DNA from: a virus
IMG/VR virus record: IMGVR_UViG_3300028925_001748
Coordinates: 1 to 27,836 of that record
Reading direction: 5' to 3' (one strand)
Length of the DNA stretch: 27,836 nt
The notes under the pieces are model-generated. The model did not search any database, had not been told where the DNA came from, and saw nothing but the letters and a program-made list of their open reading frames with translations. This document shows positions 1-19,059 of the stretch, in pieces. A program made the position numbers and the translations under genes. The stretch's first letter is position 1, and each line of letters begins with the position of its first letter.

Positions 1-773
<773 letters not shown>

Positions 774-774
<1 letters not shown>

Positions 775-10550: not shown

Positions 10551-11298
10551 CTAAAGTATCCTCTATCGTTAGCCTACGAAAGCCATCCCAATCCCTACGC
10601 ATATAGATCAAGTTCCAACATACCTCTAGCCTGTCCTGCCAATCTTCAGGGTGAGCCTTTTGCCACGCCTCTTGTACCTTAGCAAGCATGTCAGGCTTAC
10701 GGACATCAGCTAGAAGCTTCTCTGCTCTCTTAACGCCAATGCCTACAAGACCTTGAATGTTATCGGTAGAGTCTCCTGTAAGCATCTGTAAGCACATCTT
10801 ATAGTAGCCTTGGTCTTTACACACATGGTATAAAGTTTCTTTGTTAAAGTTATAATGCCAACCCTCTACCATGTCAATGTCTTTATCTATGTGAGCTATG
10901 ACAAAATGTTCCTTGGCATCTAAAGCCTCTTGCGCCCATATACTTACTACATCATCTGCTTCACAATTGTCAGACTTAAAGTGTCCTAAGCTATAAGCGT
11001 ACTCATTAAGAGCCTTGCGTTTTTCCGTTAGCTTAGGGTCTGGGTCTTCCTCTTTCCCTTCCTTAAGATTACGTTTACCTTTATAGTCTGCTTCTATTTT
11101 ATAACGGAAGTTACCTTCACCTTTAATAGCCACAGCTATCTCAGAACTACAAGTCTCCCACTCAATATTTTCAATTTCTTCCTTATAGTATTTCTTAGCT
11201 TGGTCAAGAGTAATGTCTTTAAGTGCTATCCGGTAGATAATTGAATCAGCATCAACAAAACATTTGTCAAAGGGCTTACCTTTTGGTTTAGTATTCAT
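10537..11298 (-). CDS. 5'-3' exonuclease, FEN/PIN-like (T7 gp6-like)
   Basis: A 253-residue metal-dependent nuclease. Acidic metal-binding motifs appear in order: VDADS (Asp16, Asp18), CEADD (Glu113, Asp115, Asp116), HIDKD (Asp138, Asp140) and GDSTDN (Asp176, Asp179). A helix-3-turn-helix DNA-binding element follows (IQGLVGIGVKRAEKLL). T7 gp6 removes RNA primers and degrades host DNA; the same role is inferred here. It overlaps the GIY-YIG gene by 11 bases upstream and endonuclease I downstream. All catalytic acids expected for the family are visible. Confidence 0.92.
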   Translation of the reverse strand: MNTKPKGKPFDKCFVDADSIIYRIALKDITLDQAKKYYKEEIENIEWETCSSEIAVAIKGEGNFRYKIEADYKGKRNLKEGKEEDPDPKLTEKRKALNEYAYSLGHFKSDNCEADDVVSIWAQEALDAKEHFVIAHIDKDIDMVEGWHYNFNKETLYHVCKDQGYYKMCLQMLTGDSTDNIQGLVGIGVKRAEKLLADVRKPDMLAKVQEAWQKAHPEDWQDRLEVCWNLIYMRRDWDGFRRLTIEDTLDDSV

Positions 11299-11773
11299 GT
11301 ATCACTTCCAGTATTAGCTCGTTAGCTATAGCATGTGGTAATCTAAACCACTCGTTAATGTTGTCGCACTCTTTGGCTAGTCTTGCGTGTGCCGCAGCTT
11401 CCCCTGCTCTCCTGTCGTTTACCTCATAAGAGTACAGTAAAGTATAATCTCTGAAGGGTGAGGACGTTTGATAATTCTTAATCCTATCCATAGCGTCTAC
11501 TGCCATCCCTACCTTTACCCAACCTTCCCAAGCAGGGTTCGTGATTATATACACCTGACCCTCTGGACTAGTATCGTAGTTCGCTAAGGAACTAAAGGCC
11601 GCTTCCTCAAACCCTTTGTAGCGTCCTGCTTTGTACAGGGGGTGAGTCTTCTTGACTTCCTTACCGTTGACCCACATGCGTTTGGCATCCCTTGCCTGTA
11701 CCGCTGACTTATTATCCTTGTAGTACTTACCTTTAGTGGGTGTCTGCCCAAGTGTTTCCGACTTTGTAATCAC
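11288..11773 (-). CDS. GIY-YIG nuclease (T5orf172/MUG113 type)
   Basis: The C-terminal half has the GIY-YIG fold in its diverged T5orf172/MUG113 form: EGQVYIITNPAWEGWVKVGMA, then a DRIKNYQTSSP arginine helix, a glutamate in RAGEAAAHARL and a final NEWF. An N-terminal segment (AKRMWVNGKEVKKTHPLYKAGRY) often accompanies this domain in phages. The start is uncertain. The frame is open up to an ATG at 11887, but that would overlap the DNA polymerase 3' end by 155 bases. I chose the GTG at 11773 because residues just after the polymerase stop look coding; the ATG at 11677, with AAGGG 11 bases upstream, is the alternative. The role could be a free-standing homing-type nuclease or a DNA repair enzyme. 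Confidence 0.78.
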   Translation of the reverse strand: MITKSETLGQTPTKGKYYKDNKSAVQARDAKRMWVNGKEVKKTHPLYKAGRYKGFEEAAFSSLANYDTSPEGQVYIITNPAWEGWVKVGMAVDAMDRIKNYQTSSPFRDYTLLYSYEVNDRRAGEAAAHARLAKECDNINEWFRLPHAIANELILEVIHEY

Positions 11774-13460
11774 CCTCAAGTGGGCAGTTGAGTTTGTAGT
11801 AGAGTCCTGCGGCTTGCATACAGCTTGTGGCAAGTCTCCCAAAGACATCTGATTTGTCTGCTCTAACTTCCGTTTGGATTTCATCATGTATATTACCTAT
11901 AAAGTTATAGTCTATACCCCATAGTATAGCATATTCGTCAAGTAAACACAACGCTTTCTTCATTACAATCGCACCTGCTGACTGCAATAAAGTGTTCAAT
12001 GCCGCGTGTGCTGATCGTACATAGACCCTTCTTTTATCCAATCCAAGAACATAGCCTCTTCCAGATGCCACCCCAACTCGCTCTCGTAATCTTCCAAGAG
12101 ATGGCGTATTTGCAAGGAACTTTTCCTTAAGTCGTTTACCATCAACTGCAGTTCCCCCAACGATACTTCCGATTTTTGCGTCCCCTGCTCCATATAGGAA
12201 AGCGTATATAAAAGTCTTTGCTTGATCTCTAGTTTCAAGGCCCGCAGCCAACTGGTTTGCCGTGTGAATATCTCCGTTGAGTACTTCATTTGTGTATCCC
12301 TCGTCGTTCATGTAGTGTGCTAACATTCTAAGCTCTAGCTGAGATGCGTCCATACCTACCAACTTGTATCCCTCTGGCACAGTCCACACATCTCTGCACT
12401 CTCTGCCGTAAGGTGAATACACTGCCGGAATTTGTCCCATGTTCGGACTACTGTGTGTCATGCGTCCTGTCACAGCACCGTTGGAATTAACGTAGCCGTG
12501 AACCCTTCCGTCATCCTTAACTGCCTCTAGCCAACTCTGAACCTGTGCTATGCGCTTCTGTAGCATAAGGTACTCACCTATCAACGCGGCCTCCGGTATG
12601 TCTTTGACTGCTCTAAGCACTGCCTCGTCAACAATAGGCTGTCCCTTCTCAGTGAACTGCTTAGGCTTCCAACCGTAGTACTGCAGGTGTCTGCCTATCT
12701 GCTGTCGTGAACCTAGATTAAACACTGGGAAGTCTATGCGGCTAAAAGGTGCTATAGCTGTTTCCCATTGCTCTCCTAGGAACTTGAGTCCGACAATAGA
12801 GATCGTGCCATCTTTCTTAATCTTTGGTGTGACTTGTTTAATAAATGTTGCCAATGGTTTAAAAACTTCATGCACTTTGTCTTCAAGGTCATACTTCTTC
12901 TCCTTTAGTTCAGCTAACAATAAAAAACACTTCTCTTGGTCTAAGAGCCAACCTGTTTTAATCTGGCTTGAAATAATACCCTGTACTTGATGCTCAAGAT
13001 CAATGCATTCAGGCTCAAAACCCTTAAGCTCAGAAAGTAATCTCTTGTACACCAACGTATTAACTTTAACATCCTGTACACAATACTCCAACATATCATG
13101 CGAGAAATTATCCCAATCATTATAATCACCTTTTGGTTGGTTTAGTGTCTGCCCCCAACTCTCTAAAGAATGTCCACCGTCCCTTGAGGGATTCGCTAGT
13201 CTTGATAGGACTAGGGTGTCCGTAATCTTACACTTGCTAAAATCAGTACCTAATAACCTCTCCAACACTGGTATGTCATAGCCAATTATATTATGGCCTA
13301 TCACTTCACAGTTATCAAAGCCCAGAAGCCACTCATTGAAGTCAAATAAACTGAAGCCATGAAACTCAAAGAACTCTTCAGTGCCTACAATGTGAGCAAC
13401 GATACACCACACCCTATCAGGGTTTAAACCGTTAGCCTCTATGTCAAATACTATTTTCAT
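11733..13460 (-). CDS. Family A DNA polymerase with 3'-5' exonuclease (T7 gp5-like)
   Basis: A 575-residue replicative polymerase. Proofreading motifs: FDIEANGL (Asp6, Glu8), GYDIP (Asp62) and YCVQD (Tyr126, Asp130). Polymerase motifs: A, GMDASQLELR (Asp371); B, RDQAKTFIYAFLYGAG (Arg411, Lys415, Tyr419); C, NIHDEIQ (His525, Asp526). The residue matching E. coli Pol I Phe762 is tyrosine, as in T7 (Tyr526). It is about 130 residues shorter than T7 gp5, and part of the difference falls in the thumb, where T7 carries the thioredoxin-binding loop. The C-terminus GNTWADTH matches the T7 end, so it is complete. The ATG overlaps the helicase stop (TAATG). Confidence 0.97.
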   Translation of the reverse strand: MKIVFDIEANGLNPDRVWCIVAHIVGTEEFFEFHGFSLFDFNEWLLGFDNCEVIGHNIIGYDIPVLERLLGTDFSKCKITDTLVLSRLANPSRDGGHSLESWGQTLNQPKGDYNDWDNFSHDMLEYCVQDVKVNTLVYKRLLSELKGFEPECIDLEHQVQGIISSQIKTGWLLDQEKCFLLLAELKEKKYDLEDKVHEVFKPLATFIKQVTPKIKKDGTISIVGLKFLGEQWETAIAPFSRIDFPVFNLGSRQQIGRHLQYYGWKPKQFTEKGQPIVDEAVLRAVKDIPEAALIGEYLMLQKRIAQVQSWLEAVKDDGRVHGYVNSNGAVTGRMTHSSPNMGQIPAVYSPYGRECRDVWTVPEGYKLVGMDASQLELRMLAHYMNDEGYTNEVLNGDIHTANQLAAGLETRDQAKTFIYAFLYGAGDAKIGSIVGGTAVDGKRLKEKFLANTPSLGRLRERVGVASGRGYVLGLDKRRVYVRSAHAALNTLLQSAGAIVMKKALCLLDEYAILWGIDYNFIGNIHDEIQTEVRADKSDVFGRLATSCMQAAGLYYKLNCPLEGDYKVGNTWADTH

Positions 13461-17894: not shown

Positions 17895-18317
17895 TTAACC
17901 TACGTCTTCAATTTTATAACACAATCGTACTCTGTGTCTACTACCCTTACCAATAGCACTCCAATCTTCAAGGACACCATCACGGCTTACCGCACAATGA
18001 CTAGCAGTTAAGAACATATAACGGCCTGACATTGGCGCATGGTTGGCTACGGTTCCTAATGTAGCACCGTAAACATTAGGAACATGAACTAATTGCTTAC
18101 CCATTGATTGATATAGTTTGATAATGTGCCATTGTGAAATACCGCGACCCTTAACCCTGCCGACTGTACGTTCTGCGATTGCCCTAGCCTTTCCGAATGA
18201 TAAGTCACACGCTACCGCCAAGCCTATCACTGTACAAAAGTTATTGTCCTTATAGTATTTACTACCTACCTTTGATAACTCTGCGTAGGAATGTCTAAAA
18301 TGTTTGATCTTATTCAT
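17895..18317 (-). CDS. Papain-fold cysteine peptidase-like protein, first early gene
   Basis: A 140-residue protein. NNFCTVIGLAVACDLSFGKARAIAE gives a cysteine (Cys28) at the start of a long helix. SGRYMFLTASHCAVSRDGVLEDW then gives a histidine (His107) on a strand, followed by an acidic residue (Asp118). This Cys-helix, Gly-rich strand, His-strand, Asp order is that of small phage papain/C39-like domains. Activity is inferred from pattern only; the acidic member is the least certain. It is the first gene of the leftward unit, directly after the structured leader, so it should be made earliest. AAAGG lies about 10 bases before the ATG. A host-modifying role would fit that timing. Confidence 0.72.
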   Translation of the reverse strand: MNKIKHFRHSYAELSKVGSKYYKDNNFCTVIGLAVACDLSFGKARAIAERTVGRVKGRGISQWHIIKLYQSMGKQLVHVPNVYGATLGTVANHAPMSGRYMFLTASHCAVSRDGVLEDWSAIGKGSRHRVRLCYKIEDVG

Positions 18318-18332
18318 TTTCTAATACCTTTA

Positions 18333-18656
18333 GTTATTCACTACAAACACCAGTTGCCTAGTGTCTCCAGTGAATAACCGCTGATTAAATACGGTACTGC
18401 TTAACGGCACACCTTCGCCCTAGGGCTACTTCCCGTCATAACCGTTTCTAATCTTGGTTATTCTGCCCGCTAAGGATGGTCTTCTGTCTCACTATTGCCA
18501 AGGCTACTAAGCTGAGAGTTTAAACCGCTATTGCGGGGGGCTTCAGGGACTGTTTCCTTCGTCTTCAGCCTATAAGTCACCTTGGTAACTGCTGAAGCTA
18601 GGTATCAATCTGGGGAACCGTTCCCCTGTTGCCTGAGTCCATTGTATCGACTCAAC
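18333..18656 (-). ncRNA. Candidate structured RNA or structured leader upstream of the early operon
   Basis: No frame of use is open here, but nested helices are dense. In plus-strand coordinates: 18333-18341 with 18370-18378 (9 perfect pairs) enclosing 18347-18353 with 18358-18364, whose loop on the minus strand is GCAA, a GNRA tetraloop; 18403-18407 with 18442-18446 around the palindrome GCCCTAGGGC at 18417-18426; 18487-18491 with 18513-18517; 18525-18528 with 18533-18536; 18563-18569 with 18591-18597, stacking on 18575-18580 with 18585-18590; 18612-18617 with 18621-18626; 18634-18639 with 18649-18654. Two helices contain a G-U pair only when read on the minus strand, where the plus strand would have an A-C mismatch. 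That favours leftward transcription. I do not recognise the family. Confidence 0.6.
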
Positions 18657-18662
18657 AGCTAA

Positions 18663-18691
18663 TGTATATAATGCAAACTATATAGTGTCCA
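18663..18691 (-). promoter_or_regulatory. Leftward early promoter candidate
   Basis: On the minus strand TGGACA (18686-18691), 17 bases, then TATACA (18663-18668): five and four of six consensus matches. The start would be near 18656, where the folded region begins. A second -10 match, TATAAT, lies at 18695-18700 on the same strand but with a poor -35; it sits inside the dyad ATTCAT-TAT-ATGAAT (18691-18705), which could be an operator overlapping the promoter. Confidence 0.6.
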
Positions 18692-18748
18692 TTCATTATA
18701 TGAATACCATATGTTACCTTCTATCATGCGCGCCCGCGTAGCAAGAAC

Positions 18749-18851
18749 CATGCCAACTATATTCACATGCAATACTTATGCCAACATGGTGGGGTCTATA
18801 GGTATCCACACGGACACACACACTCGCCCCATGCAATACCCATGCCAACAT
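18749..18851. repeat. Iteron-like direct repeats next to the DnaA-box cluster
   Basis: ATGCCAAC occurs three times in the same orientation (18750-18757, 18778-18785, 18842-18849). The second and third copies are part of a 22-base direct repeat (18766-18787 and 18830-18851) that differs at only two adjacent bases (tt versus cc). Short tandem sites beside DnaA boxes are typical of initiator-binding iterons, but no initiator protein is recognised in the window. Confidence 0.65.
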
Positions 18852-18980
18852 AAGCACCATGCCCCGTGTATAACCTGTGGATAACTTATGTAGCCTGTGG
18901 ATAACTTATGCACACCTTATGCACACCTTATGCACTGCTGTGGGTATCCTGTGGATAACTTATGTAAAACCTGTGGATAA
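18802..18980. other. Candidate replication origin: DnaA-box cluster
   Basis: Four copies of TGTGGATAA, the complement of the canonical DnaA box TTATCCACA, lie at 18876-18884, 18896-18904, 18950-18958 and 18972-18980. Two TTATGCACA boxes, matching TTATNCACA, lie in the opposite orientation at 18906-18914 and 18917-18925. Near matches with one mismatch are at 18802-18810, 18865-18873 and 18928-18936. A G-rich patch (about 18984-18997) follows, then very AT-rich DNA (19261-19330 has about 16% G+C by my count), which could unwind. The cluster sits between the divergent transcription units, a usual origin position. A DnaA-titrating or DnaA-regulated control site is the alternative. Confidence 0.72.
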
Positions 18981-19059
18981 CTTCGGGGGCGGGGGGCCGC
19001 GTGGCTATTGTAGTATTGTTACTGTACCCTCCGGCATACAAAATAGTAGGAAATTAGGA

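Follow-up and report, generated by a model that had tools for sequence, protein, structure and literature searches.

A structured RNA of uncultivated phages and its papain-like protease partner gene

Does the stretch of DNA separating the late from the early genes of an uncultivated phage encode a structured RNA, and if so, does that RNA act as a leader of the gene behind it or as a separate molecule working with the protein that the gene encodes? The window analyzed here (the whole stretch of 27.8 kb; IMG/VR record IMGVR_UViG_3300028925_001748) has its late genes (small and large terminase subunits, portal and capsid) on the plus strand and its early genes (primase-helicase, DNA polymerase A and a ribonucleotide reductase) to the left, on the minus strand. 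The region in question is flanked on one side by the divergently oriented small terminase gene and on the other by the first early gene (17895-18317). Elsewhere in the window, a low-complexity ORF of long PT-PV and DTG repeats is found at 43-774 (plus strand), and an ORF at 11288-11887 (minus strand), which to the eye looks like a GIY-YIG/T5orf172 protein, shares 155 nt, in another frame, with the DNA polymerase A gene (11733-13460, minus strand).

The RNA and its conserved fold

The minus strand of positions 18320-18700 folds at -125 kcal/mol (z = -6.2), with none of 100 dinucleotide shuffles as good, compared to z = -2.3 for the plus strand. These values place the density of structure beyond chance and uphold the minus-strand direction given in a preliminary description of the region. 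No ORF of 50 aa or more is present on the minus strand here, in keeping with the earlier impression that the region holds no useful reading frame. The promoter candidate noticed just before the first helix (TATACA-16-TACAAT, 18668-18641) also gained support from the relatives described below, which carry a near-consensus TTGACA-16-TATAAT-like promoter at the same fixed offset before helix P1 (11-12 of 12 matches in 23 of 32 representatives). Since the promoter is placed at 18668-18641, the RNA is inferred, without transcript data, to start near 18634, a few bases before P1, and to span approximately 18634-18332.

18641-18668, minus strand: promoter found by consensus scan, with -35 element TATACA (18663-18668), 16-nt spacer and -10 element TACAAT (18641-18646)
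18332-18634, minus strand: structured RNA (fold z of -6.2, 41 distinct full-length relatives, covariation), its 5' end at about 18634 and its 3' end inside or at the base of hairpin P9

Further upstream, four exact DnaA boxes (TTATCCACA) occur within 105 bp (18876-18980, minus strand), 230-350 bp from the RNA, where 0.28 would be expected in the window; they perhaps mark a replication origin.

IMG/VR was scanned with the motif GATTRATAYCTAG-N12-CCANGG, without use of the protein, which returned 37 stretches. By iterated profile search 35 of these were the RNA, with the gene adjoining wherever the contig reaches, and L108 and L109 were rejected as chance motif matches. Further loci fetched through neighboring proteins were pooled with these stretches. 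The distinct full-length relatives in IMG/VR number 41 (36-94% identical). A subset of 32 share less than 93% identity with one another and 36-87% with the window; the nearest relatives reach 94%. All relatives are uncultivated contigs, from aquatic phages. In cultured phages, blastn did not find the RNA and no close protease homolog was found; a motif match in a genome contig (L185), with neither protease nor RNA profile match, was taken as chance. Members of the wider classes III-VI were placed by shared protein family, motifs and complementary loops (L272 by protein alone) and were not aligned as a whole; the far classes fold with z of -1.4 to -5.0, and their strands are poorly told apart by z alone.

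The fold was tested on an alignment (A2) of 23 diverse class I sequences and comprises the following elements.

18544-18628, minus strand: domain 1, closed by outer helix P1, CAGGG/CCCUG (18624-18628 with 18544-18548; covariation)
18618-18623, minus strand: conserved GAACGG between P1 and P2
18614-18617 with 18554-18557, minus strand: outer helix P2 of domain 1, UUCC/GGAA (covariation)
18598-18612, minus strand: near-invariant joining segment CAGAUUGAUACCUAG (alignment A2; GAUYRAUAYCUA in the wider family)
18563-18597, minus strand: hairpin P3, stem 18591-18597 with 18563-18569 (covariation)
18580-18585, minus strand: kissing-loop arm 1, the P3 loop hexamer CCAAGG (covariation)
18498-18503, minus strand: kissing-loop arm 2, CCUUGG, complementary to 18580-18585
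18533-18537 with 18466-18470, minus strand: helix P4, CCCGC/GCGGG, of domain 2 (18466-18537; covariation)
18524-18526 with 18478-18480, minus strand: helix P5 of domain 2 (covariation)
18513-18517 with 18487-18491, minus strand: helix P6 of domain 2 (covariation)
18456-18461 with 18438-18443, minus strand: hairpin P7, AUAACC/GGUUAU, of domain 3 (18383-18461; pairing in relatives)
18447-18453 with 18383-18389, minus strand: pseudoknot of the P7 loop GAUUAGA with UUUAAUC (pairing in relatives)

In the 40 pairs of P1-P6 and the loop-loop helix, 99.0% of cells are paired and 29 pairs have changed on both sides, with a covariation of 0.535 compared to 0.203 when shuffled and at most 0.092 when the partners are slid. 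It is important to note that the structure was picked by eye on the same sequences, which partly tilts the sliding control in its favor; no such tilt affects the exact complementarity, which is kept with many different letters. The P3-loop CCNNGG exactly complements the CCNNGG of the P6 arm in all 47 of 47 class I-III RNAs, using five hexamer pairs (CCAAGG/CCUUGG, CCACGG/CCGUGG, CCUAGG, CCAUGG and CCGCGG), several of them palindromic. Most distant members with upstream DNA show further hexamer or heptamer pairs (e.g., CCAACGG/CCGUUGG, CCACAGG/CCUGUGG and CCCGUGG/CCACGGG), and complementary hexamers are absent in a few far members, such as L262 and L272. The sequence cannot tell whether the contact is formed within or between molecules. 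For P7, the pseudoknot and P9, 96.1% of cells are paired, and whole pseudoknot octamers are swapped among relatives (GUUUAUCA/UGAUAAAC, GUUUGUCC/GGACGAAC and GAUUGUUC/GAACAAUC). A lack of compensatory changes in homologs had been set beforehand as grounds for refutation; such changes are abundant, and the RNA passed strongly. The dense structure reported earlier as at least seven hairpins is real, but the conserved fold is not a row of local hairpins: it consists of the long-range P1/P2, the loop-loop contact and the pseudoknot, the last two of which are invisible by eye. Two other pairings were rejected in favor of P1/P2, namely a local 5' GGGG/CCCC hairpin, in which most pairs vary on one side only, and a GAUUG/CAGUC alternative, which shows no compensatory change and is unpaired at one pair in 4 of 23 sequences. 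Separately, the 5' strand of P7 (GAAUAACC) could pair with the 5' strand of P9 (GGUUAUUC) over 8 bp in most relatives (18332-18461 in the window, L001); given this likeness of strands, strand exchange is possible.

These observations establish a real structured RNA on the minus strand of 18332-18634. They leave hardly any room for a DNA-level element, such as a replication origin or packaging site whose palindromes merely resemble RNA, a reading that could appeal to the DnaA boxes nearby and that is largely refuted by the stronger minus-strand fold, the covariation of the loop-loop contact and pseudoknot, the directional promoter, the hammerhead at the end of class IV RNAs (see below) and the absence of the element in sibling phages.

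The partner gene and joint gain and loss

Wherever the contig extends, the gene downstream of the RNA belongs to one protein family (~140 aa, ~24-92% identical).

17895-18317, minus strand: partner gene, encoding a 140-aa homolog of papain-like (C39/staphopain/Josephin-like) cysteine peptidases (alignment, AlphaFold, structure matches)

In an alignment of 17 members, Cys28, His107 and Asp118 are invariant, which meets the triad order Cys-His-Asp/Asn. The AlphaFold model (pLDDT 89.7) has staphopain, C39 peptidase and Josephin domains as its top solved structure matches (Z 8-8.6), and BFVD holds phage proteins of the same fold. The protein is thus predicted to have a papain-like fold, for which these Z scores are middling and consistent with the triad; protease activity is an inference. 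Linkage to the RNA was rejected for cultured phages with distant protease-like genes (Pakpunavirus and others), where the leader is absent or separated: other genes lie between a 400-440-nt noncoding leader and the protease-like gene in PAK_P1 and PAK_P2, the PAK_P2 leader (fold z = -2.3) has no recognized motif in common with the RNA, and no such leader precedes the protease-like gene in Curvibacter P26059A or Pseudomonas phage Bitten. The 400-440-nt noncoding stretch that precedes an operon with a distant papain-like homolog in the Pakpunavirus phages PAK_P1, PAK_P2 and Kat (L187:1812-2249, L192:526-923, L186) may itself hold another structured RNA.

Both RNA and gene were found at 89 loci, only one of them at 19 and neither at 76, counts that are partly overlapping or redundant and not independent. 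Truncated contigs account for the sole RNA-only locus and for four of the gene-only loci; the remaining gene-only loci carry diverged RNAs, recognized by hand or by complementary loops. On a tree of 49 distinct TerL proteins, the presence of the cassette changes at least 7-10 times, RNA and gene changing together, and near-identical TerL pairs can differ in it (e.g., L081 without and L098 with). One locus (L077) has kept the promoter and a short 5' hairpin with another gene in the slot, and the early operons of sibling phages begin without such a leader. Because of this joint presence and absence, the changes on the TerL tree and the sibling loci without it, the RNA and the protease gene can be said to move together, as a single cassette, through an exchangeable slot among the early genes, and their joint gain and loss points to what may be a two-part RNA-protein device of unknown purpose.

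Within the cassette, domains 1-2 recombine with the unit formed by domain 3, P9 and the gene. Domains 1-2 that are 93-95% identical occur with different domain 3 and protease in L105/L104 (domains 1-2 95% identical, the rest 57%, protein 31%), L180/L045 and L024/L097, and L181/L112 share 44% identity in domains 1-2 versus 97% in the rest. Such free exchange among cassettes whose proteases are only 31-35% identical argues against recognition of a specific protease by domains 1-2. Domain 3 type goes with protein type, an association that may stem from recognition or simply from the two being close neighbors on the DNA.

Two further explanations need to be weighed. An RNA-only assembly of the GOLLD/ROOL/OLE kind would be held together by kissing loops between molecules, with the protease as a cassette neighbor without physical contact; like the nanocage RNAs (PMC12286853), the RNA is encoded by phages and has an ornate, conserved fold that includes kissing loops, and the hexamers, several being palindromic, could pair between molecules. 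We consider it improbable, as the RNA is smaller than GOLLD or ROOL, has no Rfam relationship to them, and would remain inseparable from one protein family for no evident reason. Similarly doubtful is a type III-like toxin-antitoxin or counter-defense pair in which the RNA inhibits the protease. A pseudoknotted RNA encoded immediately ahead of a small enzyme, together with the joint mobility of the two, would suit such a pair, but there is no tandem-repeat antitoxin (no tandem repeats occur inside 18332-18634), the enzyme is papain-like and not an endoribonuclease, and toxicity data are lacking.

The junction between RNA and mRNA

18332-18379, minus strand: P9, the last hairpin, with two 22-nt arms (21 bp, one 1x1 mismatch) and a GCAA loop; proposed processing site
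18327-18331, minus strand: Shine-Dalgarno sequence AAAGG, directly after P9

The GNRA loop noted in the preliminary description is the GCAA at the tip of P9 (18354-18357). In those class I/II representatives whose hairpin was isolated by the fold, the P9 arms are 21-23 nt long, mostly exactly 22, despite wide sequence change. P9 has the form called for in an RNase III site, a long hairpin, nearly perfect and roughly two helical turns in length, ahead of the next ribosome binding site; processing by RNase III is an inference that rests solely on how long the hairpin is and where it stands. The Shine-Dalgarno sequence follows P9 by 1-4 nt, and the start codon lies 11-13 nt past the end of the RNA profile in most of 29 relatives. 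Other classes mostly have hairpins of 17-26 bp at the junction; in L262, a far relative, no long junction hairpin was found. In class IV (L172, L173, L176, L193-L196), a hammerhead ribozyme takes the place of the hairpin. The RF00008 match lies exactly at the junction of RNA and ORF in L172/L173 (41.7 bits, E 7e-6, below the gathering score of 48.5), and the class IV elements have all core bases (CUGANGA...GAAA), three stems and NUH cleavage sites (GUC or GUA), with stem I pairing kept in three variants (AGGGU/ACCCU, GCGGU/ACCGC and ACGGC/GCCGU). Since either a long hairpin or a hammerhead occupies the one site, separation of the RNA from the mRNA is seemingly conserved. The junction element suggests that the RNA is kept apart from the mRNA, an inference made without any observed cleavage, and the exchange of hairpin for hammerhead at one junction amounts to a natural experiment on RNA processing of an unusual kind. 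A second hammerhead-like core (CUGAUGA...CGAAAC) was seen downstream of the protease gene at L262:2840 (plus strand).

The main rival to a discrete processed RNA is a very large cis-acting leader, in which domains 1-2 would sense a ligand, a protein or the host state, and domain 3 with P9 would serve as the expression platform for translation or stability of the protease mRNA. The RNA is the 5' UTR of the gene, with the Shine-Dalgarno sequence 1-4 nt past P9 and a near-constant distance to the start codon; domains 1-2 and domain 3/protease undergo two-way modular exchange, as occurs between aptamers and platforms; and the likeness of the P7 and P9 strands would permit strand exchange. However, no intrinsic terminator was found in the RNA, the hammerhead or long hairpin would part the leader from its mRNA, and sibling operons manage without it. 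A switch that sequesters the Shine-Dalgarno sequence has no conserved support: in most relatives the complementarity of that sequence to the RNA is no better than in shuffled sequences, the possible P7/P9 strand exchange being left standing. A cis-acting leader is thus a possibility to be kept in mind and not the expected outcome.

The reading favored here (probability approximately 0.55) is that of a discrete RNA, released by cleavage from a joint early transcript with the mRNA, that works with the protease and, in the simplest account, is required wherever the protease occurs. It is preferred because of the processing-type element at the junction and the absence of any sign of a terminator or of a conserved Shine-Dalgarno-sequestering switch. 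The preliminary description had left the choice between a large phage ncRNA and a regulatory leader; that framing is supported, with the evidence leaning to a processed RNA and a cis-regulatory role not excluded. Counting against the processed RNA are the near-constant start-codon distance, which also fits a cis-acting leader, and at least one far relative, L262, in which complementary hexamers and a long hairpin at the junction are both missing. In the proposed mechanism, a sigma70-type promoter of the RNA's own would drive the leftward early transcript, whose first segment is the RNA of ~260-300 nt. This RNA would fold into three domains (P1-P3; P4-P6, docked on P1-P3 via the kissing-loop contact; and the P7 pseudoknot) and would be cut off the protease mRNA at the junction, by means of the RNase III-type hairpin with 22-nt arms here and of the self-cleaving hammerhead in relatives. 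RNA and protease would form one functional, jointly mobile cassette, in which the RNA most likely serves to bind, scaffold or restrain the protease, or works alongside it in taking over the host or countering its defenses. As far as sequence comparison can carry them, the fold, the fixed gene order, the joint gain and loss, the junction elements and the protease family are established. Promoter use and transcription, cleavage at the junction, any direct contact between RNA and protein, and the biological target are inferred, in the absence of transcript, cleavage, binding or toxicity data. More tentative still is the proposal that the papain-like enzyme has the RNA as an obligate subunit or as an inhibitor, the two forming a mobile counter-defense or host-takeover device freed from one transcript by RNase III or a built-in hammerhead.

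Comparison with known RNA systems

The earlier failure to match the RNA to a known family by eye held up under covariance search. The minus-strand RNA matched no Rfam 15 family: no match in the window reached the gathering threshold, a relaxed search of 18000-19000 (E up to 10) gave nothing meaningful, and the RNAs of class I relatives and of diverged classes went unmatched apart from the class IV junction hammerhead. GOLLD and ROOL profiles matched neither the window nor the relatives, the window contains no tRNA (tRNAs being expected in a GOLLD/ROOL neighborhood), ARAGORN recognized no tmRNA gene in it, and a literature search found no paper on this RNA. Judged against Rfam 15 and general knowledge, the best explanation is that the RNA is the founding member of an RNA superfamily not yet listed. 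Large structured RNAs whose folds have been proven are uncommon, and for most of those found in phages no partner is known. Here, a partner gene of a recognizable enzyme family and several independent gains and losses make function directly testable, and a protease under the control of a dedicated RNA, if true, would represent a novel type of RNA-protein device.

The nearest known kind is that of GOLLD and ROOL, large ornate phage RNAs of unknown function with covarying kissing loops and pseudoknots, which form RNA-only cages, often near tRNA islands, and have no identified protein partner (PMC12286853). The window RNA shares with them an elaborate fold with kissing loops and a pseudoknot; in contrast, GOLLD and ROOL are much larger, and the window RNA has a partner protein gene and no covariance-model match. 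In HEARO, the omega RNA of IscB, a structured RNA of ~300 nt lies directly upstream of its partner gene and is mobile together with it. The likeness is in gene order only, as the partner here is a papain-like protease and not an HNH nuclease, and Rfam gives no match. The type III toxin-antitoxin system ToxIN likewise places a pseudoknotted RNA upstream of a small enzyme gene and processes it from a joint transcript; the gene order is alike, but the window RNA differs in having no tandem repeats, a different enzyme fold and no evidence of toxicity. At the RNase III sites of T7 early transcripts, a long hairpin stands just before a gene's ribosome binding site in an early phage operon. P9 has the same placement, with the differences that cleavage there is inferred and that a hammerhead substitutes for it in one class. 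That substitute corresponds to the type III hammerhead (RF00008) in core bases and three stems in the class IV relatives, where the window has the P9 hairpin instead.
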